Shown in pieces: positions 2,964 through 35,907 of a stretch of DNA of 64,000 bases. The notes under the pieces were generated by a model. That model did no database searches. It was not told where the DNA came from and saw nothing but the letters and a program-made list of their open reading frames with translations. Numbering within the stretch: the first letter of the stretch is position 1; every line of letters starts with the position of its first letter. Source of the DNA: Carbonactinospora thermoautotrophica (lineage in GTDB: Bacteria; Actinomycetota; Actinomycetes; Streptomycetales; Carbonactinosporaceae); assembly GCF_001543895.1 (NCBI RefSeq), contig NZ_JYIJ01000016.1, positions 248,001 to 312,000 of the forward strand. Direction: 5' to 3'. The translations under genes were made by a program, and so were the position numbers.

Positions 2964-3899
2964 TCAGTGCGCGCCGGCGCCCGTGTATCGGGCGGGGTCG
3001 GATTCGAATGCGGCGCGGCACCCTTCGCAGCAGAACCACCACCGCTTGCCCTCAAGATCGATGTGCGGCGTGCTGTCCACTGCGGCGACGGTCATGCCGC
3101 ACACGGGGTCGACCGCGGTCGTCGGGGCGGGGGCGGTGTTTTCGGTCACCCCGGTGTGCCCGCCCGTTCGGGGCGGCTCAGACCGCACGGACGTGACGAT
3201 CTCGGCCAAGATCGACAGGGCGACTTCCCCGGGCGTGCGCGCGCCGATCTCCAAACCGGCCGGGGTACGGATCCTCGCCCGCTGCTCCGGCGTCAGGTCC
3301 AAGCTGGCCAGCACCGCCTCACCGCGCTTGCGGCTCGCGACCAGCCCCACGTACGGCACTCCCGCGCGCACCGCGAGGGTGAGGAGGGGCTCTTCGTCGC
3401 GCCCGTGGGAGGCGACAACGACCGCGGCGACGCCGTCGAGGGACTCGGCCTTGACCTCGTGGGCGGCGACGGCCTGGATGTCGTACTCAAGGCCTGGACC
3501 CAGCGCCACCAGGTGGCGGCCGATGGGCGTGTCACCGAGAACGAGCACTTTCGGGGCGGGGAGCACCGGCTCGAGAAAGATCTCCAGCTCCCCGCCCGAG
3601 AGACACGGATTGCCGACCTCGACGGCCCCCTCCTCGACGACCGGCTCACCGGTCTTGTCCGGTGAGATCCGCAACAGCAACGGCTCGCCGGTCTGCAGTG
3701 TCTCTAGGCCGTACCGGCGCACTGTCGCCTCCGCGCAGGTGCCGCCGACGAACCCTTCCATGTTGCCGTCGGCCAGCACCAGCGCGGTGTCCCCTGGGTG
3801 CGCGCTCGTCGGTCGACGAGCGCGCACCACCGTGGCCTTGACAAACGGGGCACGCCGGGCTTTCAGCTCGGCCATCCGTTGGTCGAGGACAGATCTCAC
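2964..3899 (-). CDS. coxF: XdhC/CoxF-family protein fused to a C-terminal YHS domain
   Basis: XdhC/CoxF proteins serve maturation of molybdenum hydroxylases, binding or sulfurating the cofactor before insertion. The 311-residue product has an N-terminal XdhC_CoxI part (GGTCAE around residue 54), a Rossmann-like C-terminal XdhC part (VLVLGD... through [10 protein letters not shown]), then a Thr/Pro linker and a YHS domain at about 264-311 with the pattern DPVCGM...WWFCCEGC...DPARY. Cysteines 267, 290, 291 and 294 are candidates for metal binding. The GTG start at 3899 overlaps the coxL stop as GTGA, indicating coupling; the ATG at 3938 lies inside coxL. YHS domains occur in heavy-metal (often copper) proteins. 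The fusion is unusual among CoxF proteins I know, and its role in copper delivery is inference. Confidence 0.88.
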
Positions 3900-6253
3900 T
3901 GGGGCGGCTCCACGCTTCCGTACTTCATCGCCGTCCACACCCGGCTCGGGGTCAGCGGCATGTCCACGTGGCGGACACCGATGGCGTCCATCACCGCGTT
4001 CACCACCGCGGCGGGCGAACCCACCGTCGCCGACTCACCCACACCCTTGGCCCCCAGCGGGTGGTGCGGGGACGGGGTGACGGTGTAGCCCAGCTCCCAC
4101 GACGGGCACTCCAGGGCGGTCGGGAGCAGGTAGTCCATGAACGACCCGCCCAGGCAGTTGCCCTCCTCGTCGAAGCCGATGAACTCCATCAACGCCATGC
4201 CGACACCGTCGGCCAGACCGCCGTGCACCTGCCCCTCGATGATCATCGGGTTGATGCGGGTGCCACAGTCGTCGACCGCGATGAACCGACGCACCTTGAC
4301 ATGCCCGGTGCCGGGGTCGACGTCCACCACGCAGATGTAGGCCCCGTAGGGGTAGGTGAGGTTCGGCGGGTTGTAGACCGTCTGCGCCTCCAGGTGCCCC
4401 TCCACCCCTTCGGGCAGCTCAAGGTCACCGTGCGCGGCCAGGGCGATCTCCTGGATGGTCTTGCCCTTCTCCGGGTCGCCCTTGACGAACCAGCGCCCCT
4501 TCTCCCACTCCAGGTCCTCGGGAGACACCTCGAGCATGGCGCTCGCGATCAGCCGGGCCTTGTCCCGCACCTTGCGGGAGACGACGGCCGCGGCCGCACC
4601 CGACACCGGCATGGACCGGCTGCCGTAGGTGCCGAGTCCGAACGGGGTCTGGTCGGTGTCGCCGTGGATGACGTCGATGTCCTCCGGCGGGATGCCCAGC
4701 TCCTCGGCGACGATCTGAGCGAACGTCGTCTCATGCCCCTGGCCCTGGGTCTGCACGCTCAGCCGCAGCACCGCCTTGCCGGTCGGGTGCACACGCAGCT
4801 CGCACCCGTCGGCCATGCCCAGGCCCAGGATGTCCATGTGCTTGCGGGGCCCCGCACCCACGGCCTCGGTGAAGAACGAGATCCCGATCCCCATCAGCTC
4901 GCCGCGGGCACGCCTCTCGGCCTGCTCCTTGCGCAGCTCCTCGTACCCGGCGATGTCCATGGCCTTGCGCAGGCAGGTGGGGTAGTCCCCGGAGTCGTAC
5001 ACCCACCCGGTCTTGGCCTGGTAGGGGAACTGCTCAGGCCGCAGCAGGTTCTTCATGCGCAGCTCGGCCGGGTCCATGTTCAGCTCGTCGGCCAGGCAGT
5101 CGACCATGCGCTCGACCAGGTACACCGCCTCGGTGACCCGGAACGAGCAGGCGTAGGCGACGCCGCCCGGGGCCTTGTTGGTGTAGACACCGGTGACCTT
5201 GCAGTGGGCGGCCTCGAGGTCGTACGAGCCGGTGAAGACGTGGAAGAAACCGGCCGGGTACTTCGCCGGCTGGGCCTGGGCGTTGAACGCGCCGTGGTCG
5301 CCGAGCACGTTCACCCGGAGCGCGAGGATCTTGCCGTCGCGGGTCGCCGCGATCTCCCCGCGCATGTGGTAGTCGCGGGCGAAGGAGGTGCTCATGAGGT
5401 TCTCCGAGCGGTCCTCCATCCACTTCACCGGCTTGCCGGTGACGATCGACCCGACGATCGCCAACACGTACCCGGGGTAGATGCCCACCTTGTTCCCGAA
5501 ACCGCCGCCGATGTCGGGGGCGATCACGCGGATCTTGTGCTCGGGCAGGCCCGCCACCATCGCATAAAGCGTGCGGTGGGCGTGCGGCGCCTGGGTGGTG
5601 CTCCACAGGGTGAGCTTCCCGTCGACCTTGTCGAAGTGGGCCACCGCCCCGCAGGTCTCCAACGGCGCGGGGTGCACCCGCGGGTACAGCATGTCCTGGG
5701 TGACCACCACGTCGGCCTTGGCGAAGACCGCGTCGGTGGCCTCCTTGTCGCCGGCCTCCCAGTCGAAGATGTGGTTGTCGGTCTTGCCTTCCAGGTCGTC
5801 CCGGATGACCGGCGCGTCGGGGTCCAGCGCGCGCCGGGGGTCGACGACCGCCGGCAACGGCTCGTACTCGACATCGATCAGCTCCAGGGCGTCCCGAGCC
5901 GAGTAGTGGTCCTCGGCGACGACGAAGGCCACCTCCTGACCCTGGAACCGCACCTTGTCGGTGGCCAGCACGGCCTGGGTGTCCAGCGACAGGGTCGGCA
6001 TCCAGGCCAGGTTCATGCTCTCCAGGGTCTTGCCGGTGATCACGGCCTTCACCTTGGGGTGGGCCTCAGCGGCCGAGGTGTCGATCGACACGATGCGGGC
6101 GTGCGCGAACGGGCTGCGCAGGATGGCGCCGTGCAGCATGCCCGGCAGCTTCACGTCGTCGACGTACGTACCCTTGCCCCGGACGAAGCGCTGGTCCTCC
6201 TTGCGCTTCAGCGAGCCAAAGCCGATCGGTCGTTCTTCCTTGACGGCGGTCAC
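3896..6253 (-). CDS. coxL: Aerobic CO dehydrogenase large subunit, form I (molybdoprotein)
   Basis: Large subunit of the Mo-Cu CO dehydrogenase, which oxidises CO with water to CO2 and two electrons. The product is 785 residues, close to the usual 800. The form I active-site loop AYACSFR is present, with the copper-binding Cys at about residue 369; form II enzymes have AYRGAGR here. The C-terminal GVGESA provides the catalytic glutamate, and GGGFGNK and the QGQGHET region are molybdopterin contacts. The start is GTG 6253, two bases after the coxS stop and behind GGGAG; the ATG at 6298 lies within coxS. It sits in the canonical M-S-L order. The key Cys and Glu are intact, so this is expected to be a true CO dehydrogenase. 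Confidence 0.97.
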
Positions 6254-6255
6254 GG

Positions 6256-6735
6256 TCAGCTCCCTACGGTCTTGGCGGTCGAGTGCTCCGCGGCCCACTG
6301 AATGGCCCTAACGATGTTCAGGTAGCCGGTGCACCGGCACAGCTGGCCGGAGATCGCCTCGCGGATCTCGGCCTCGGTCGGATTGGGATTCTCGTTGAGC
6401 AGCGCCCGGGCGGTCATCAGCATGCCCGGGGTGCAGAAGCCGCACTGCAGGCCGTGCTTCTCGATGAAGCCCTGCTGGACGGGGTCGAGGTTGCCGTCGA
6501 CCTCCAGGCTTTCGACGGTACGCACCTCGTGCCCGGCAGCCATGGCGGCGAGAACCGTACAGCTCTTGACCGGCTTCCCGTCCAGAAGCACGGTGCAGGC
6601 GCCGCAGTTGCTGGTGTCACAGCCCCAGTGGGTGCCGGTGAGGCCCAGATCGTCGCGCAGGAAGCGCACCAGCAGGTGGCGCGGCTCGATCTCGCGAGTG
6701 TAGTCCTCGCCGTTGACGTTGATGGTGATCTGCAT
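6256..6735 (-). CDS. coxS: CO dehydrogenase small subunit, 2x[2Fe-2S]
   Basis: Iron-sulfur subunit that carries electrons from the Mo site to the FAD of CoxM. The 159 residues hold the plant-type [2Fe-2S] cysteines C39, C44, C47 and C59 (CDTSNCGAC...C) and the helical-domain set C98, C101, C133 and C135 (CGFC...CRC). I chose ATG 6735, which follows AGGGAGG by 7 bases; a TTG two codons upstream is the only other start. The start lies just past the coxM stop and the stop lies two bases before the coxL start, typical of a tightly coupled coxMSL operon. All eight cysteines are present. Confidence 0.97.
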   Translation of the reverse strand: MQITINVNGEDYTREIEPRHLLVRFLRDDLGLTGTHWGCDTSNCGACTVLLDGKPVKSCTVLAAMAAGHEVRTVESLEVDGNLDPVQQGFIEKHGLQCGFCTPGMLMTARALLNENPNPTEAEIREAISGQLCRCTGYLNIVRAIQWAAEHSTAKTVGS

Positions 6736-6737
6736 CC

Positions 6738-7607
6738 TCAAGCCTCCCTTCCTGCGGCGCGGGCCACGGCCCGCCGCAGCGCGCGCTTCGTAAGCTCACC
6801 GGCCAGATGCCGCTTGTACTCGGCACTGCCCCGGGTGTCGGTGATCGGCTCGCACACCTCGGACGCGATGCGACCAGCTTCGGCGAACAGTTCCTCGGAG
6901 GGCTCCTTGCCGCGCACCGCCTCCTCCACCTGGTGGGCGTGCAAGATACCCACCGCGGCATACCCGAAGCCGGCGTCGGCGATCCGCCCGTTGTTCAGCG
7001 AGACGGCCGCCCCCACGGCGGCGATCGCCCAGTCCCCCGCCTTGCGCTCGACCTTCTCGTAGGCGCTCCCGGCGTTCTGCCAGACCGGGATGCGAACCTC
7101 AACAAGCATCTCACCCGGGCCGACTGCGGTCTCGTACGGGCCCAGGTGGAACTCATCCATCGACACGACACGGGAGCCGTCCGCACCCCGGATCACGGCC
7201 TGGGCCTTCACGGCGGCGCACACCGCGGAGAGGTCCTCGGACGGGTCAGCCTGGCACAGCGAGCCACCGATCGTGCCCCGGTTGCGGACCAGCGGGTCAG
7301 CGATCACTCGCTCGGCGTCGTGGAAGATCGGGAAAAATCGCCCGATGAGCTCCGACTCGAGCAGGGTGCGGTGTCGGGTGAGCGCGCCGATACGCAGCTC
7401 AGAACCTTCCTGGCGCACGTAGTCGAGCTCGTGAAGATCGTTGATGTCGATGACGACCTCCGGCCGGGCGAGCCGGAGCTTCATCATTGGCAGGAGGCTG
7501 TGGCCTCCGGCGATGATACGCGCCTCGTCGCCGAAGCGCTGGAGCAGCGCAAGCGTCTCATCGACGCTCTTCGCTCGTTGGTACTCAAACGGCGCCGGTA
7601 CCTGCAC
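6738..7607 (-). CDS. coxM: CO dehydrogenase medium subunit, FAD-binding
   Basis: Flavoprotein subunit that passes electrons from CoxS to the quinone pool. The 289 residues show the two FAD pyrophosphate motifs AGGHSLLP (about 33-40) and TIGGS (about 112-116), at almost the same positions as in the Oligotropha enzyme. The start is GTG 7607 behind AAGGAG; the ATG at 7697 would add 30 residues of arginine-rich leader not seen in the family. This is the first gene of the minus-strand operon, facing the divergent coxG group across a 661-base spacer that must carry its promoter. Confidence 0.96.
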   Translation of the reverse strand: MQVPAPFEYQRAKSVDETLALLQRFGDEARIIAGGHSLLPMMKLRLARPEVVIDINDLHELDYVRQEGSELRIGALTRHRTLLESELIGRFFPIFHDAERVIADPLVRNRGTIGGSLCQADPSEDLSAVCAAVKAQAVIRGADGSRVVSMDEFHLGPYETAVGPGEMLVEVRIPVWQNAGSAYEKVERKAGDWAIAAVGAAVSLNNGRIADAGFGYAAVGILHAHQVEEAVRGKEPSEELFAEAGRIASEVCEPITDTRGSAEYKRHLAGELTKRALRRAVARAAGREA

Positions 7608-8268
7608 GGCACTCTCCTTCCCGTCGCGGTCCGAACCCCGTACCGCTGGACCCGCACTTTGGAGCCGAACCCACAAGCGGGTCAACGGCGAGTTCAAGGA
7701 ATTGTTAACTTAAACCAGAACGGCGTGCACGCCGGATGTGAGGGGCTGCTCGCCGGCCTCAAGGTGACCCTCCACGGCTCATGATTCCGACGGCCCGGGG
7801 TGACCGGCGCGAGGGTGCTCGCCTCGGGAGTTCGGTGATCCGTTGGTCGTGCGGAGCGCCAGCGGGATCACGTTGACGCTGGGCGGTTGGCAGCAGTGCC
7901 ACGGAAGATCCCGGTGTTGGCCGAGGAGATCCCAGCAAGTTCGGGAAGCTTCGGAGATTGCGGGTGAGTTGTGTAGGTTCGTCACGACACCAGCGGCGAC
8001 CCAGGCCGTGCTGACCCGCTCCAACCGGGTGCCGATGAGCAGCTTCAAGCCACCCGTCCACGTCACGATTTGGAACACAACCAGCAGTTAAGCGATAACT
8101 GAAGAGTACATTGACCGGCACGGTGACAGGCGTTCATCGTTACCGCTCGGACCCGAGGCCCGGCGCCGGCCGGACCGCCACACCCCCCCTGCCCCGACGT
8201 GGATCCACACGCCCCGCGGCGGGCCCGGGTACCACCGGGGAACCTACAGGTAAGGAGGATCGTCCGCG
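7608..8268 (+). promoter_or_regulatory. Divergent cox control region without a convincing gene
   Basis: This spacer separates coxM (minus) from coxG (plus). It has two AT-rich islands: one at about 7695-7715 containing GTTAAC, near the coxM end, and one at about 8070-8115 containing the inverted repeat CAGTTA-AGCGA-TAACTG (8085-8101), near the coxG end. Either could hold promoters or operators. A minus-strand open frame at 7779-8078 (99 codons) has mixed codon use and no recognisable family, so I do not call it a gene. No -35/-10 pair is clear enough to name. Confidence 0.45.
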
Positions 8269-8976
8269 ATGGACTTCACCAACGAGTTTCGAGTCAGCCT
8301 GCCGGTGGAGCAGACCTGGCAGCTGTTCACCGACGTGGAGCGGATCGCCCCGTGTATGCCGGGCGCCCAGCTCACCGAGGTGCACGGTGACCAATACCAC
8401 GGGACGGTCAAGGTCAAGGTCGGCCCGGTAACCACCCAGTTCAAGGGCGTCGCGGCCTTCGAGCAGCTGGACGCCACGAACCGGACCATGGTGCTCAAGG
8501 CCGAGGGCCGGGACACCCGCGGTCAGGGCAACGCCAGCGCGCTCATCACCGTCCAGCTCACCCCCGACGGCACCGGCACCAAGGTCGTCGTCAAGACCGA
8601 CCTGAAGATCACCGGCAAGCTGGCCCAGTTCGGCAAGGGCGTGATCGAGGACATCAGCAAGAAACTGCTGGCGCAGTTCGTCGACGCCCTGGAGAACCAG
8701 CTGGTGGCCCAGGAGAAGCCCGCACCCGCCGCCCAGCCCGCCGGCGCCACCACCAGCACCACCACCAGCGCCACCACCAGCGCCGCCGCACCCACCGGGG
8801 CCGGAGCGGCGACCACCCCGTCGGCGACGACCGCTCCCCGCCGGATCGAGTCCCCTGAGGTCGAGCCCCTGGACCTGATGGACGTCGCCCGCGGCGCGGT
8901 CCTCAAGCGCGCTATCCCCCCGGTCGCCGCCCTCGTCGTCCTCGCCGCCATCCTCATCTGGTGGTTCAACCGATGA
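8269..8976 (+). CDS. coxG: CoxG, SRPBCC-fold membrane-anchored CO dehydrogenase accessory protein
   Basis: CoxG proteins tether CO dehydrogenase to the cytoplasmic membrane and are thought to help pass electrons to quinone. Residues 1-150 form a SRPBCC (polyketide cyclase-like) domain, recognisable from the N-terminal FRVSLPVEQTW, the CMPGAQL motif and VKVKVGPV. There follows an Ala/Thr/Pro-rich linker (about 150-205), then a single C-terminal hydrophobic helix at about 214-232 ending in WWFNR, the membrane anchor. AAGGAGG lies 10 bases before the ATG. It is the first gene of the divergent accessory operon coxG-xdhC-mocA. Domain order and anchor match CoxG of other carboxydotrophs. Confidence 0.92.
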   Translation: MDFTNEFRVSLPVEQTWQLFTDVERIAPCMPGAQLTEVHGDQYHGTVKVKVGPVTTQFKGVAAFEQLDATNRTMVLKAEGRDTRGQGNASALITVQLTPDGTGTKVVVKTDLKITGKLAQFGKGVIEDISKKLLAQFVDALENQLVAQEKPAPAAQPAGATTSTTTSATTSAAAPTGAGAATTPSATTAPRRIESPEVEPLDLMDVARGAVLKRAIPPVAALVVLAAILIWWFNR

Positions 8977-9012
8977 ACAAACCCGGCAGACGACACAACT
9001 AGAGGAAACCCG

Positions 9013-10119
9013 GTGAAGGAGATCCTGGACGACCTCACCCGCTGGCACACCCAGGGCAAGCGGGTCGCTCTTGCGCGGGTCGTCGACGTCGAAGGCAGCG
9101 GTCCCCGGCTCCCGGGCGCGGCCATGGCCGTCAACGAGGATGGGGAGGTGACGGGCTCGGTCTCGGGCGGGTGCGTGGAGGGCGCGGTCGTGACCGAGGC
9201 CCTCGACATCCTCTCCTCCGGGGACCGCAAGGTCTTGACGTTCGGCTACAGCGACGACGACGCCTTCGCCGTCGGCCTCACCTGCGGGGGCACGATCCAC
9301 CTCTACGTCGAACCGCTCGACTGGTGGGAGCTCTACGACGAGGTCCGTCAACTGCTGGTCAGCGAGGAACCGACCGCGCTGGTCACCGTCATCGACGGCC
9401 CGAACACGGGCGCCAAGCTGCTGGTACGTGCCGACGCGGCCGTGGCGCCGATCGGTACCCTCGGCGACCCCGACCTCGACCGCGTCGTCGTCCGCGACGC
9501 CCGCGGCGAACTGGCGGCGGGGAGGACCGGCATACGGCACTACGGCGAGCACGGCGAGGCCCGTGAGAACACCATGTCGGTGTTCATCGAGTCGTTCGTG
9601 TCGCCTCCCCGCATGCTCATCTTCGGGGCGGTCGACTTCACCGCCGCGCTCGCCCGGGTCGCCAAGGTGCTCGGCTACCACGTGACGGTGTGCGACGCCC
9701 GACCGGTGTTCGCCACCCGGAAGCGGTTCCCGATGGCCGATGAGGTGGTCGCTGATTGGCCGCACCGGCTGCTGGAGAAGGTCGGCCCCACGCTCGGTCC
9801 CCGCGATGCCGTCTGCGTGCTCACCCACGACGCGAAGTTCGACGTGCCGGCAATCGTCACGGCCCTCGGTACCAATGTCGGTTACCTGGGCGCGATGGGA
9901 TCCCGGCGGACCCATGCGAAGCGGGTCGAGCGGCTGCGGGAGGAAGGCGTCGATGAGGCCGGCATCGCCCGGATCAGGGCGCCCATCGGCCTGGACCTCG
10001 GGGCGCAGACCCCGGAGGAGACCGCGATCGCCATCTGCGCCGAGATCATCGCGACCCGCGCGGGGCGCACCGGTGCGGTCGAACCGCTCCGCGACGGGAG
10101 CGGACGGATCCACACATGA
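9013..10119 (+). CDS. XdhC/CoxF family molybdenum-cofactor maturation protein
   Basis: Second XdhC-family protein of the locus, 368 residues and of full two-domain length. The N-terminal XdhC_CoxI domain carries GSGPRLPGAAM and SGGCVEGAV with its conserved Cys. The C-terminal NAD-binding-like domain starts at RMLIFGAVDF and includes YLGAMGSRRTH and a C-terminal IGLDLGAQTPEE motif, the standard XdhC_C signature. By family knowledge it binds molybdopterin cofactor and promotes its sulfuration and insertion. It starts at GTG 9013, 36 bases after coxG, and its stop overlaps the next start as ATGA. Unlike the paralogue at 2964-3899 it lacks a YHS domain, suggesting a division of labour. Confidence 0.9.
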   Translation: MKEILDDLTRWHTQGKRVALARVVDVEGSGPRLPGAAMAVNEDGEVTGSVSGGCVEGAVVTEALDILSSGDRKVLTFGYSDDDAFAVGLTCGGTIHLYVEPLDWWELYDEVRQLLVSEEPTALVTVIDGPNTGAKLLVRADAAVAPIGTLGDPDLDRVVVRDARGELAAGRTGIRHYGEHGEARENTMSVFIESFVSPPRMLIFGAVDFTAALARVAKVLGYHVTVCDARPVFATRKRFPMADEVVADWPHRLLEKVGPTLGPRDAVCVLTHDAKFDVPAIVTALGTNVGYLGAMGSRRTHAKRVERLREEGVDEAGIARIRAPIGLDLGAQTPEETAIAICAEIIATRAGRTGAVEPLRDGSGRIHT

Positions 10120-10763
10120 GCGTCGAACACGGCCTGAGCTCGACGACCTCCCACGAGGTCGTCGGCATCGTGCTCGGGGCGGGCGCGTCCACCCGGTTGG
10201 GACGCCCCAAGCAGCTGCTCCCGCTGGGGGACACCACCGTGCTCTCCTGGGTGGTCGCCCGCGTCGAACGCTCCTCTCTCGATCGCGTCGTCGTGGTGGT
10301 AGGCGGCGGCGACGACGACGTCGTCCGGTCGTTGAGTCCCGGCCGAGCGCGTATCGTGCGCAACGACGCCTACGGCTCCGGATGCGCGTCGTCGCTGCTC
10401 GCCGGCCTCGACGCCGCCGGTGAGTGCGCCGCGGTCATGCTTCTCCTGGGTGACATGCCAGAGGTCGACACACCGGTCATCGACGAGGTGCTGGCCCGCT
10501 GGCGGGCGAGGCCGAGCTGGGCGGCGGTCACGAGCTACCGAGGCCAGCTCGGCCACCCGTTCGTCTTCTCGGCCGCCGCCTTCCCGACCCTGCGGGGCCT
10601 GCACGGCGACAAGGCGGTGTGGAAGATTGTCGATCAGGCGCCCCCGGAACGCCTGCAACGCTTTGCGGTGGACCGGCCGCTTCCTCGTGACATCGACACG
10701 TGGGAGGACTACGTGGAGGTGTGTGCGGCACTTGGCGTACCCGTCGGGTCGCGATCGGAGTAG
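10116..10763 (+). CDS. mocA: MobA/MocA-like molybdenum cofactor nucleotidyltransferase
   Basis: Nucleotidyltransferase of 215 residues. The N-terminal signature LGAGASTRLGRPKQLLPLG binds the nucleotide, and LLGDMPEV is the metal-binding aspartate loop of the family. CO dehydrogenase uses molybdopterin cytosine dinucleotide, so in this setting the enzyme most likely transfers CMP to molybdopterin (MocA role); GTP use as in MobA cannot be excluded from sequence alone. It overlaps the upstream xdhC by 4 bases, so the two are co-translated. It ends the divergent operon and converges on the MFS gene after a 114-base spacer. Confidence 0.85.
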   Translation: MSVEHGLSSTTSHEVVGIVLGAGASTRLGRPKQLLPLGDTTVLSWVVARVERSSLDRVVVVVGGGDDDVVRSLSPGRARIVRNDAYGSGCASSLLAGLDAAGECAAVMLLLGDMPEVDTPVIDEVLARWRARPSWAAVTSYRGQLGHPFVFSAAAFPTLRGLHGDKAVWKIVDQAPPERLQRFAVDRPLPRDIDTWEDYVEVCAALGVPVGSRSE

Positions 10764-14416: not shown

Positions 14417-14738
14417 CCCCACCCCAAGACCCCCAACACACAACCCGATCCAGCCCAACACACGACCGGGCCTCCCCACGCGCCATCCCCGATCAACGGC
14501 AACCACCCTCCCCAACCCAGTAAAACGGTCAAATAGTCTGATACACATATAGAAGATCACATATCCCAACACACCACTTAAACTCCACTAGACATCCCCA
14601 CACGGACACGGATCACCCCCGGCAAAGGCGCTGGGCGGCGTGCTGGACCGCGCGGCGTAATCCAGACGTGATCTAGACGAGTCACTGCCGTGTCGTTACG
14701 CTCCTGGAGAGAACAGTTGGGGGACCTGAGGGGTTGCC
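14417..14738 (+). other. A/C-skewed gene-free stretch
   Basis: The first ~130 bases continue the C- and A-rich, G-poor composition of the end of the FUSC gene. Next comes an AT-rich segment (about 14520-14600), then ordinary sequence before the small Cys-rich gene. No gene is seen on either strand. The promoter of the 14739 gene is expected at its right end. Confidence 0.5.
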
Positions 14739-14960
14739 ATGAACGCTGATACGCGCTTGATTCCGGTGATGCGGTTCTGCGGCCAGTGCAGCTGCGGCTG
14801 TCCTGAGCTGTTCCTCGACCCCGACGCCCCCGAGGAGCGGCGGGTCGTCATCACCGACGACTTCGGTCAGCGCATCCAGATGAGCCTGGACCAGCTGCGC
14901 GACATTCTCGAGCAGGCCAAGAGCGGCGCCTTGGAGGAAGCCCTCCTGGCCACGCGCTGA
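14739..14960 (+). CDS. Small Cys-rich conserved-looking protein, function unknown
   Basis: A 73-residue protein. Near the N-terminus is FCGQCSCGCPEL, with cysteines spaced CxxCxCxC, a likely Zn or Fe-S site. The rest is acidic and predicted to be one beta hairpin (RRVVITDDFG) and one helix (LDQLRDILEQAKSGALEEAL). The ATG is preceded by GAGGGG at a suitable distance, and a strong hairpin terminator lies 12 bases after the stop, so it looks like a real monocistronic gene. I recall similar short actinobacterial hypothetical proteins but can name no family or function. Confidence 0.72.
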   Translation: MNADTRLIPVMRFCGQCSCGCPELFLDPDAPEERRVVITDDFGQRIQMSLDQLRDILEQAKSGALEEALLATR

Positions 14961-14971
14961 GCCCGGCGTCC

Positions 14972-14999
14972 GCCCCGTCACGCGGTCGCGTGGCGGGGC
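14972..14999 (+). terminator. Hairpin terminator after the Cys-rich gene
   Basis: A 12-13 bp stem (14972-14984 with 14987-14999) containing one G-T wobble. No U-tract follows, as is common in actinobacteria. Confidence 0.65.
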
Positions 15000-15028
15000 C
15001 TGCTGATCGCTTCATTACCCGACACGCG

Positions 15029-15112
15029 AAGAGCACAGGGTGGCCGGCATCGACTGGAACAGGTCGATGTCCCCCGCTGAACCAGACGGGGACCGGCCTC
15101 ACCTGTGCTCTT
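15029..15112. other. Three-way-junction palindrome (Y-shaped foldback element)
   Basis: The outer stem pairs 15029-15039 with 15102-15112 (AAGAGCACAGG / CCTGTGCTCTT) and continues 15042-15047 with 15093-15098 (GGCCGG / CCGGCC), with one bulge and one mismatch between. Inside are two hairpins that abut with no unpaired bases: 15048-15054/15063-15069 (CATCGAC / GTCGATG, 8-base loop) and 15070-15074/15088-15092 (TCCCC / GGGGA). The shape recalls foldback ends of replicating or mobile DNA, or a structured RNA. No protein family is nearby to explain it. Function is unknown. Confidence 0.75.
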
Positions 15113-16219
15113 GCCATTTGCGCCATTTATCTCTGTGGAACTGTCCCTGGAACCGTGCTGCTCGTGGTCTGCAGATCTGGTGGCTGGTCCGCGAGTCACC
15201 TCGCAGGCCTGTCGGCAGACAACGGGGTCGTGGGCGACTCGCCCTCCGCCTTCCGGGTCCTGCGCTTGTCCGGCGTTGTCGTCCCGGGTTGACCACCGGG
15301 AGCATGGCACGTACCTACCGCTGATCACCCTCCGTGGTGGCGTGTCTGATCGTGCGGACGGAGCAGCCCGGATCACGGCCTGTTCCTGCTGTCCACCTTC
15401 TCGTGCTCGTCCGAGCCGCTGGGAACATCAGCGCCACCACGCGGTACGCCGTCGGCAACGACGTGTGGCGGCGCTGACGGGCTCCGGGATCGAAGCGCTG
15501 GCGGTGGACCAGGGTGTCCGTCTCCTCGGCAGTTCCAACTCCTTCGCGGAGCGCCTGGAGTCGCTGCCCGGCCCGACGGCCTGAGAAGCCCCACAGTGAT
15601 CAGGAGCATCGTGCCACGAACGCACCGACGCCCCGTGACCACCCGGCCCCGTCACCTGGGCCGCCTGAGGGATCGGAGACATCCAAGCTCAGGAGGCCAC
15701 GCAACGCTTGATCGCTATAAACTTCACCCCATTGAATCAAACTTACATAAGGTTCATACCGGGACGAAACTACACTAACTACATGCCGTTGCCGTCGGAG
15801 GAGATCGCGCGCGATCAGGGTGAACGGGTGCGCCGGTTCCTGTTGCCCGTCGTTCCGGCCGGCTCCGCCACCGTCCGCGTGTCGGACACGCCCGTCTCGT
15901 GCCCACGGGCGTCGTCCCTGACCGCACCAGTGGCGGCTCCAGGACCGGGCATGCCCCGGCGAGCCGCCGTGGCCGGCGTTCACCGGCCACGCGACGGTGG
16001 GGTGAACTCACCACGCGCCCGCTTGCGGTCGCCCACGCGGCCTAGATCCGGTCAGTTCCGTCACCCGACACCCACGACCTGTGCGGGCGAGCCCGGCCAC
16101 CAGTCCGCGGCTGACTCATCCGGTCCTCTTCCCGCCCCGTTCCCGTCACGCCCCGGCAGGCATGCCTTCAGCATCCAAGCGCCCCGCCTACGCGGCTGGC
16201 ACTACCCCCGAGGTGAATC
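15113..16219. other. Gene-poor region upstream of the multicopper oxidase
   Basis: No frame here has a recognisable product, good codon bias and a ribosome site together. The 100-, 159- and 171-codon plus-strand frames have poor third-position bias and low-complexity products. The piece at about 15400-15585 has short stretches of protein-like translation in two different frames, as in a decayed gene, but I cannot name it. An AT-rich island at 15710-15785 is the likeliest promoter/operator zone. Confidence 0.5.
15739..15754. promoter_or_regulatory. Inverted repeat in AT-rich island, possible operator
   Basis: AAACTTA-CA-TAAGGTT: seven-base arms with one mismatch, inside the most AT-rich part of the region. 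Spacing and symmetry resemble MerR- or ArsR-type sites, but no such regulator gene is adjacent. It lies about 465 bases before the multicopper oxidase start, so the link is weak. Confidence 0.35.
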
Positions 16220-17671
16220 ATGAAGTACATCGACCGCCGGGCGTTCGTCCGCGCCGGCTTGGCGATCTCGACCGTGGGCACTCTTGCGGCCCGTTCCGAC
16301 ACCGGGCACAGACTCAGCCGGGCGGTGACGGCCCGCCCGCTGTCTTCGGCCACCCGCTCCTACGCCCTGAACGCGGTCGAGAGCCAGGTCGACCTCGGCG
16401 GGCCGGAGGTGAACACCTGGGCGTACAACGGCGTGGTGCCAGGCCGGGAGATCCGGGTGCGCAAGGGTGACGTCATCAAGGCGAAGCTGGTCAACCGGTT
16501 GCCCACCGAGACCACGGTCCACTGGCACGGGGTGCCGGTGCCCAACGACATGGACGGCGCACCCGGCGTCACCCAGGACCCGGTCGAGCCGGGCGACGTC
16601 TTCGTCTACCGCTTCGCCGCTGAGGTGCCCGGCACCTACTGGTTCCACCCGCACGTCGGGGTCCAGCAGGACCGGGGCCTGTACGCGCCGCTGATCATCG
16701 AGGATCCGGACGAGCCCGCACCGTATGACGAGGAATGGGTCGTGGTGCTCGACGACTGGATCGACGGTGTCAAGACCACCCCCGACGAGGTGCTCGCCGC
16801 CCTGCGATCAGGCTCGGGCCACGGCGCCGCGGCCACCCAACCGGGCCACGACAACCTGCTGCTCCGGGACGCGCACAGCCCGCTGCTCCGCGGGCACGCG
16901 GGCGATGTCAACTACCCGCACTATCTCATCAACGGCCGGGTCGCCACCGCGCCACGGACCTTCACCGCCAAACCCGGGCAGCGGGTACGCATCCGGTTCA
17001 TCAACGCCGGCGGCGACACCGCCTTCCGGGTCGCGATCGGCGGACACCGCATGCGGGTCACCCACACCGACGGCTTCCCGGTCGAGCCGGTGGAGACCGA
17101 AGCGCTGCTGATCGGCATGGCCGAGCGGTACGACGTGCTCGTCACTCTCGAGGACGGCGTGTTCCCGCTGGTCGCGCTGGCCGAAGGCAAGAACGCCACC
17201 GCCCTGGCGCTGATCCGGACCAGCACCGGCCAGGCCCCGCCGCCCGACGTACGGCCCAAGGAGCTGGACGGCCTGCTGATCGGCTACGACCGCCTCACGC
17301 CCACCCCGGACGCGCTGCTGCCCCGGAAGAACCCCGACGTGGAGCACCACCTCGTGCTGAGCGGCACCATGGAGAAGTACGACTGGGGGATCAACGGCGA
17401 GACCTACGACCCTGAGCAGGGGTACGCGATCCGCGAAGGGCAGCGCGTCCGGCTGCTCTTCACGAACAAGACGAAGATGTGGCACCCGATGCACGTCCAC
17501 GGGCACACCTTCCAGACGAACGAGACCGGGCCGCGCAAGGACACCGTCAACGTGCTCCCGGGCCAGACGGTGACCTGCGACTTCGACGCCGACAACCCCG
17601 GCCGGTGGATGTTGCACTGCCACAACGTCTACCACTCCGAGAGCGGCATGATGACCCTCCTCACCTATTAG
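16220..17671 (+). CDS. Multicopper oxidase (laccase-like), Tat-exported
   Basis: Multicopper oxidase of 483 residues that should oxidise a phenolic, metal or other one-electron donor and reduce O2 to water outside the membrane. The N-terminus has a twin-arginine-like signal (DRRAFVRAG followed by a hydrophobic stretch). All four copper motifs are visible in order: HWHG, HPHVG, HPMHVHGH and HCHNVYHSESGM, which supply the trinuclear centre and the type 1 site with a Met axial ligand. Three cupredoxin domains are expected from the length. No recognisable partner genes surround it; an ABC exporter follows 120 bases later on the same strand. The substrate cannot be told from sequence. Confidence 0.93.
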   Translation: MKYIDRRAFVRAGLAISTVGTLAARSDTGHRLSRAVTARPLSSATRSYALNAVESQVDLGGPEVNTWAYNGVVPGREIRVRKGDVIKAKLVNRLPTETTVHWHGVPVPNDMDGAPGVTQDPVEPGDVFVYRFAAEVPGTYWFHPHVGVQQDRGLYAPLIIEDPDEPAPYDEEWVVVLDDWIDGVKTTPDEVLAALRSGSGHGAAATQPGHDNLLLRDAHSPLLRGHAGDVNYPHYLINGRVATAPRTFTAKPGQRVRIRFINAGGDTAFRVAIGGHRMRVTHTDGFPVEPVETEALLIGMAERYDVLVTLEDGVFPLVALAEGKNATALALIRTSTGQAPPPDVRPKELDGLLIGYDRLTPTPDALLPRKNPDVEHHLVLSGTMEKYDWGINGETYDPEQGYAIREGQRVRLLFTNKTKMWHPMHVHGHTFQTNETGPRKDTVNVLPGQTVTCDFDADNPGRWMLHCHNVYHSESGMMTLLTY

Positions 17672-17791: not shown

Positions 17792-18500
17792 ATGGGCGTG
17801 CTGGAGGTGCGCGGCCTGGTCAGGCGCTTCGGGTCGGTGACCGCGGTCAACGGGGTCGATCTCACCGTCGAAGCAGGCGAGATCGTCGCCCTGCTCGGCC
17901 CCAACGGCGCGGGCAAGACCACGACCCTGCACGTGGTGCTCGGCCTGGTGACCCCCGACGCGGGCCAGGTGCGGCTGTTCGGCCGCGACCTGGCCCGGCA
18001 CCGTACCGAGGCGCTGAGCCGGCTCAACCGCCTCCGGTTACGTCAGCCTGCCCGGTGCGCTGACCGTCGAGGAGAACCTGCTCACCTTCGCGTACCTCTA
18101 CGCGGTACGCCGACCGCGCCGACGGGTGGCCGAGCTGATGGAGCTGCAGGACCTGCGCAGGCGCCGGGTCCGCCAGCTCTCGTCCGGGCAGCAGACCCGG
18201 GTGCAGCTCGCGAAGGCGCTGCTCAACGAGCCGGAGCTGCTGGTGCTCGACGAGCCCACCGCAAGCCTCGACCCGGACGTCGGGGATCGGGTGCGGGAGG
18301 TGCTGGTGCGGCTGGCCCGCGAGGCCGGGCGGGCGATGCTGATCACCTCGCACAACATGCGCGAGGTGGAGCGCATGTGCGACCGGATCGCGTTCCTGCA
18401 GGCCGGGTGCGTCGTCGCGGCCGGGTCGGTGGCGGAGCTGACGGCCCGGTACCGGGTCAGCGACCTCGAGGAGGTCTTCCTGAGAGTGGCACGTGGATGA
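17792..18500 (+). pseudogene. ABC exporter ATP-binding protein, frameshifted
   Basis: ATPase of the drug/antibiotic exporter type. The N-terminal part (17792 to about 18028) has Walker [11 protein letters not shown]. The rest, including signature [16 protein letters not shown], Walker B LLVLDEP and the H-loop TSHN, is in the next frame and runs to the stop at 18500. The conserved sequence resumes at ASGYVSLPG, so one extra base near 18026-18032 (AACCGCC) breaks the frame. Without it the protein would be about 235 residues and complete. The downstream permease begins with an ATGA overlap and is intact. The break may be a true mutation, a sequencing error or a +1 shift. Confidence 0.85.
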
Positions 18501-35864: not shown

Positions 35865-35907
35865 GCGTCGGGTGTGCGTGCCGGCAGCCGGCACGCACAC
35901 CCGACGC
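35865..35907. terminator. Bidirectional terminator, 21-bp perfect arms
   Basis: A near-ideal hairpin: 21-base arms (GCGTCGGGTGTGCGTGCCGG... and complement) around a single A. It fills the gap between the convergent hydrolase and aminotransferase genes. Confidence 0.85.

Follow-up and report, generated by a model that had tools for sequence, protein, structure and literature searches.

A singleton three-way-junction foldback, possibly terminator-like, at a gene end in Carbonactinospora thermoautotrophica

A foldback in the shape of a three-way junction lies at positions 15029-15112 of a 64-kb stretch of the genome of Carbonactinospora thermoautotrophica (this whole stretch is called the window). 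It is not a product of chance. The foldback follows the stop codon of a 73-aa gene and a plain hairpin at 14972-14999, and it might be a gene-end element of that gene, serving together with the hairpin as a tandem terminator or 3'-end barrier; we give this reading somewhat less than an even chance. It is built on the observed fold, its rarity and its position, and on the tandem hairpin and a decayed neighbouring gene. Most simply, the foldback is taken as a backup terminator or 3'-end barrier for either strand. As a singleton without covariation, it is described here as a gene-end foldback that is probably terminator-like.

An earlier note on this DNA had described a Y-shaped fold at this site, and a pair-by-pair listing bears out the position of every helix. 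The feature as a whole carries no strand assignment and was characterised by fold energies, a junction census and a GC-corrected rank, in addition to the pair listing; its parts are given on the plus strand. The left arm of the outer stem (15029-15047) and the right arm (15093-15112) form two helices, in which 15029-15039 pair with 15102-15112 (11 bp) and 15042-15047 with 15093-15098 (6 bp). An asymmetric internal loop of 2 nt on one side and 3 nt on the other (GT versus TCA) separates them. The 11 + 6 bp of the earlier description are confirmed, while the possible extra pair that it had added falls inside this loop. Hairpin 1 (15048-15069; CATCGA-CTG-GAA-CAG-G-TCGATG) has 6 bp and, beyond a bulged G, a CTG/CAG tip with the loop GAA. 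Hairpin 2 (15070-15092; TCCCC-C-G-CTG-AAC-CAG-A-C-GGGGA) has 5+1+3 bp and the loop AAC. Both tips have the form CTG-N3-CAG. The junction is perfect, as had been claimed: the closing pairs 15047/15093, 15048/15069 and 15070/15092 abut with zero unpaired bases. All 35 pairs of the foldback are Watson-Crick, and none is G-U.

The fold is strong on both strands. As plus-strand RNA it reaches -58.8 kcal/mol (z -6.9), a value that none of 200 shuffles equalled; the minus strand folds at -56.5 (z -6.2), and the same sequence folded as DNA gives -34.3 (z -7.0). Corrected for GC content, it is the strongest fold of the window, ranking first among the 3,196 100-nt windows compared. Zero-gap three-way junctions with 6 outer and 5+5 inner pairs were counted, with a repeated palindrome family set aside, over 2.78 Mb of the 5.13-Mb genome (~54%). 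The count outside that family was 25, and Markov controls gave 9-16. Of 14 further outer pairs the foldback forms 12, and all other cases, real or control, form nine at most. It is the sole clear outlier among such junctions in the 2.78 Mb, which together with its z score and rank upholds the view that the Y shape is not accidental. An origin as an assembly artefact is unlikely, given that the three helices are unrelated in sequence and do not constitute one long inverted copy.

The open reading frame upstream, at 14739-14960 (+), encodes the 73-aa protein CGQCSCGCPELF...DDFGQR. It is conserved in part of the order, with matches in 13 of 60 genomes including its own; the 12 others are 53-65% identical, the best of them at E 1e-24. 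The protein has the motif CxxCxCGCPxLF...DDFGQR, and comparison with Pfam and NCBIfam gave no family match. A plain 12-bp hairpin, a candidate I-shaped terminator without a T run, begins 11 nt past the stop codon (14972-14999, +). The foldback starts 29 nt beyond this hairpin and 69 nt beyond the stop at 14960. Terminator function has been reported for hairpin clusters that lie near stop codons and lack U runs, in bacteria that include an actinobacterium; behind gyrA of M. smegmatis, hairpins in tandem gave better termination than single ones (PMC8355165). It had been argued that, since a plain terminator already exists at 14972-14999, the foldback must be something else. The hairpin is real, and no T run stands behind it; the argument itself fails, because terminators are known in which hairpins stand in tandem or in clusters behind a single stop codon (PMC8355165).

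The U run that marks a classical L-shaped terminator is absent behind the foldback, where the sequence reads CTTGCCATTTGCG, and a scan for T-run terminators picked neither the plain hairpin nor the foldback. A U run is not a requirement for the I-shaped or cluster types, for which the distinguishing feature, stable GC-rich hairpins close behind a stop codon, is present here. Two further observations favour an element of the gene end. Gene-end hairpins are also found among the window's other top folds after GC correction (35884, 41415 and 51829, which lie between convergent gene ends, and 50207, which lies behind a gene), and the near-equal predicted folding of both strands is what a two-way barrier would be expected to show. 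Against it stand the branched fold with its 45-nt interior, which is atypical of terminators, the missing T run and negative scan, the presence of a plain hairpin already upstream, and the absence of an equivalent fold downstream of the examined orthologues of the 73-aa gene.

It is possible to outline how such a gene-end element would work. The polymerase would pass the first hairpin, and the two inner hairpins would form as they emerge in the transcript; the 17-bp outer stem would then close around them, and its closure would exert a pull on the RNA-DNA hybrid around 15112-15120, bringing the polymerase to a stop. An alternative outcome would be a stable, exonuclease-resistant 3' end of the RNA. 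Because all pairs are Watson-Crick, the barrier would act on either strand; it might affect transcripts of both strands, and the gene would also be guarded from antisense reading out of the decayed region. We infer, on this scheme, transcription through the foldback, termination, and protection of the 3' end. Zero G-U pairs are more typical of a terminator or a DNA palindrome than of a long-lived structured RNA, and this feature and the equal folding of the strands fit a terminator, a barrier or a DNA palindrome better than they fit an evolved small RNA.

An independent small RNA, specific to the lineage, encoded on either strand and with the three-way junction as its core, is unlikely. Its attraction is the strong, rare and branched fold, whose junction leaves no base unpaired, and the CTG-N3-CAG motif common to both hairpin tips. 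However, a simple consensus scan (whose pattern misses some actinobacterial promoters) detected no promoter-like site on either strand in 14600-16250, the gap to the previous hairpin on the plus strand is just 29 nt, none of the 35 pairs is G-U, and neither a homologue nor an Rfam match was found. A BLAST search of the whole genome (5.13 Mb in 19 contigs), which is the only genome of its family in the collection compared, returned no second copy, the next matches being short bits of the inner part. In 392 genomes of the order, blastn yielded short partial matches only, none of them spanning the fold. A covariance model built from the single sequence, with a reach of fairly close relatives so that distant homologues can escape it, found no convincing homologue in overlapping samples of the order (n=198), class (n=395) and phylum (n=346). 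Its matches scored 27-32 bits, with E values of 0.001-0.1 per genome across hundreds of genomes, and the best one outside (G570, 32.5 bits) sits within a long ORF and was rejected as a homologue. Compensatory base changes were not found in these order, class and phylum searches. In Rfam, no family matched at its gathering score and the hits at a lax threshold were chance ones; a tRNA/tmRNA search was empty. Two of the checks proposed earlier, a covariance search for compensatory changes and a search for other copies in the genome, came out negative, and the suggestion of a conserved structured-RNA core finds no support.

A broader variant is also quite improbable in our estimate: a lineage-restricted structured element, either RNA or extruded DNA, with an exactly stacked junction and two CTG-N3-CAG tips that a protein could read, whose role in this actinobacterial family would be other than ending transcription.

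A wider search drew attention to one repeat. A scan for the outer stem in 84,980 species gave a few scattered matches, at about the chance rate, and one repeat family in Gemmatimonadota. One of the scattered matches (L163:7512-7600, JAGVJG010000017.1) has an Illumina adapter (AGATCGGAAGAGC) beside a perfect inverted repeat and is a probable assembly artefact. The Gemmatimonadota repeat is a multi-copy hairpin of ~130 nt with the ends CTAGCCCTCAGG...CCTGAGGGCTAG, its stems broken by short internal loops, and it looks like a MITE or an extragenic palindromic repeat. That the foldback is its homologue, sharing the outer arms (CTAGCCCTCAGG...GCAAGAGCACAGG...), is hardly credible. The arms AAGAGCACAGG/CCTGTGCTCTTGC do match at 14 loci in three metagenome-assembled genomes (L160-L162, L164, L166, L167, L169-L175, L177), and the spacing between arm ends is similar, at 82 nt in the foldback versus mostly 85 nt. 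But 10-base arms were the search pattern, and for this reason only the flanks and interior count for homology. Compared with random genome pieces, the fractions that were as good amounted to 0.51 for the left flank, 0.10 for the interior and 0.18 for the right flank, which is chance level, and the fold there is one long hairpin, unlike the foldback. The match is considered a coincidence.

Other repeats occur in the foldback's own genome. One, dispersed over it, is a long and nearly perfect palindrome, GTCGAGTGTGCGTGTCGTCACACGCGTGTGACGACACGCACACTCGAC, whose core pattern has 26 exact matches in 2.0 Mb; it lies mostly at intergenic sites and in all orientations, for example at L150:2540-2590, L129:13460-13510, L080:10665-10715, L056:5190-5240 and L154:16410-16460. 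The window has shorter kin of this palindrome, at 35884, 41415 and 51829. The foldback does not belong to the family, as both its sequence and its shape are unlike. A second dispersed inverted repeat, GGCGGGCCGTGCGGGC ... ~62 nt ... GCCCGCACGGCCCGCC, is found at L092:110, L129:8009 and 13389, L142:16929, L150:2435 and L151:6976, often ~100 nt from the long palindrome, with which it looks to form a composite repetitive element; one copy tested against Rfam had no match. A CRISPR-like array with a period of 61 nt and the repeat GGATCACCCCCACGCGCGTGGGGACGAC is present at L064:10035-10200.

Downstream of the 73-aa gene, no intact gene is encountered between 14961 and 16219, and the next one, at 16220, encodes a multicopper oxidase. 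The earlier note had seen about 1.1 kb without genes here; the lack of an intact gene is correct, and the stretch holds gene traces. DNA comparison with an intact copy reveals a decayed gene of the creatininase family at 15297-15585 (+), frameshifted and internally deleted. The remnant is clearest at 15301-15507, where its DNA is 78% identical to that of the intact copy (C19:702474), and after a large deletion a C-terminal trace remains near 15535-15585. The intact copy (L079:1413-2132) matches Pfam PF02633 at E 1.4e-58; it has other genes on its flanks, and its nearest model is mycofactocin MftE, with a score under the cut-off. Judged from this comparison, the decayed gene accounts for at least part of the gene-poor stretch, which is not explained by a plasmid or transposon remnant. 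The first recognisable part of the remnant lies ~190 nt downstream of the foldback on the same strand, which raises the idea that the foldback is a fossil 5' leader of the creatininase gene. This is very improbable: the start of the intact paralogue is overlapped by an upstream gene, so that no such leader exists there, and a leader should have decayed along with its gene, yet the fold is perfect.

The neighbours scanned, a subset of the window genes, are metabolic and transport genes only (CO-dehydrogenase-type, transporters and the like), and no transposase, integrase, Rep, relaxase or terminal-protein gene is among them. A CO-dehydrogenase-type gene cluster occupies 3896-10763 of the window, with CoxL-like, CoxG and XdhC/CoxI genes. 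Together with a family of this order that is represented by one genome, such a cluster would suggest Carbonactinospora, whose order and family are listed in PMC9130861. An ABC transporter ATPase gene at 17792-18500 is split over two frames by a frameshift or by decay, 17792-18013 corresponding to profile positions 1-52 and 18126-18497 to positions 90-137. No target-site duplication of 4-9 nt was detected when ends lying up to a few bases from the stem were compared. The foldback has one copy in its genome and none in the 392 genomes of the order, and relatives are absent from plasmid and phage records and from viral contigs. It lies inside a 403-kb contig, whose nearer end is ~140 kb away. The single copy and the missing duplication speak against an insertion sequence or MITE, and the proposal of a mobile-element or plasmid remnant finds no footing here. 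The same applies to a foldback origin of replication, transfer or transposition, as the site is internal to its contig and the scanned neighbours include none of the genes named above.

A more general DNA explanation is that the foldback is a relict or a one-off, either a small non-autonomous mobile element or a template-switch palindrome in a decaying stretch, with any action exerted as extruded DNA. We regard this as rather unlikely. The exclusively Watson-Crick pairing, the near-equal folding of the strands, the adjoining decayed gene and the lack of conservation elsewhere in the genomes searched would all agree with it. On the other hand, the single copy, the missing target-site duplication, the absence of transposase, integrase and Rep genes from the scanned neighbours and of any plasmid or phage relative do not, and one template switch would hardly yield three separately perfect helices of different sequence.

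How the foldback relates to known systems depends on which reading is adopted. A compact three-way junction is shared with structured RNAs in Rfam, but no family there is matched above chance. If the foldback were expressed as RNA, it would represent an orphan family not described before, from a deep lineage of actinobacteria; at present it is a well-formed singleton, with phylogenetic support absent in the genomes searched. MITE-like hairpin repeats such as the CTAG...CTAG family of Gemmatimonadota are comparable in their ~85-nt core and identical 11-nt arm sequence, and differ in that the foldback is single-copy, has no 4-9-nt target duplication, and is similar in interior and flanks at chance level only. 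The telomeres of Streptomyces chromosomes consist of packed palindromes with a terminal protein (PMC4513846). These and the T- or Y-shaped ends of the parvovirus type resemble the foldback as palindromic DNA for which a branched foldback is possible, a likeness of shape alone; unlike them, the foldback is ~140 kb from a contig end, with no series of palindromes around it and no Rep or terminal-protein gene in the neighbours scanned. The tandem and clustered terminators without U tracts (I-, U- and V-shaped; PMC8355165) are similar in that two strong foldbacks of high GC content and without a T run stand less than ~150 nt from a stop codon, in an actinobacterial-type genome. In place of a plain hairpin, the foldback has a branched three-way junction whose outer stem counts 17 bp, and its terminator role is putative. 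Should it prove to be a terminator, it would be a case of a branched three-way junction serving as a gene-end element in a GC-rich actinobacterium, and terminator predictors built on hairpins have no model for such a shape.
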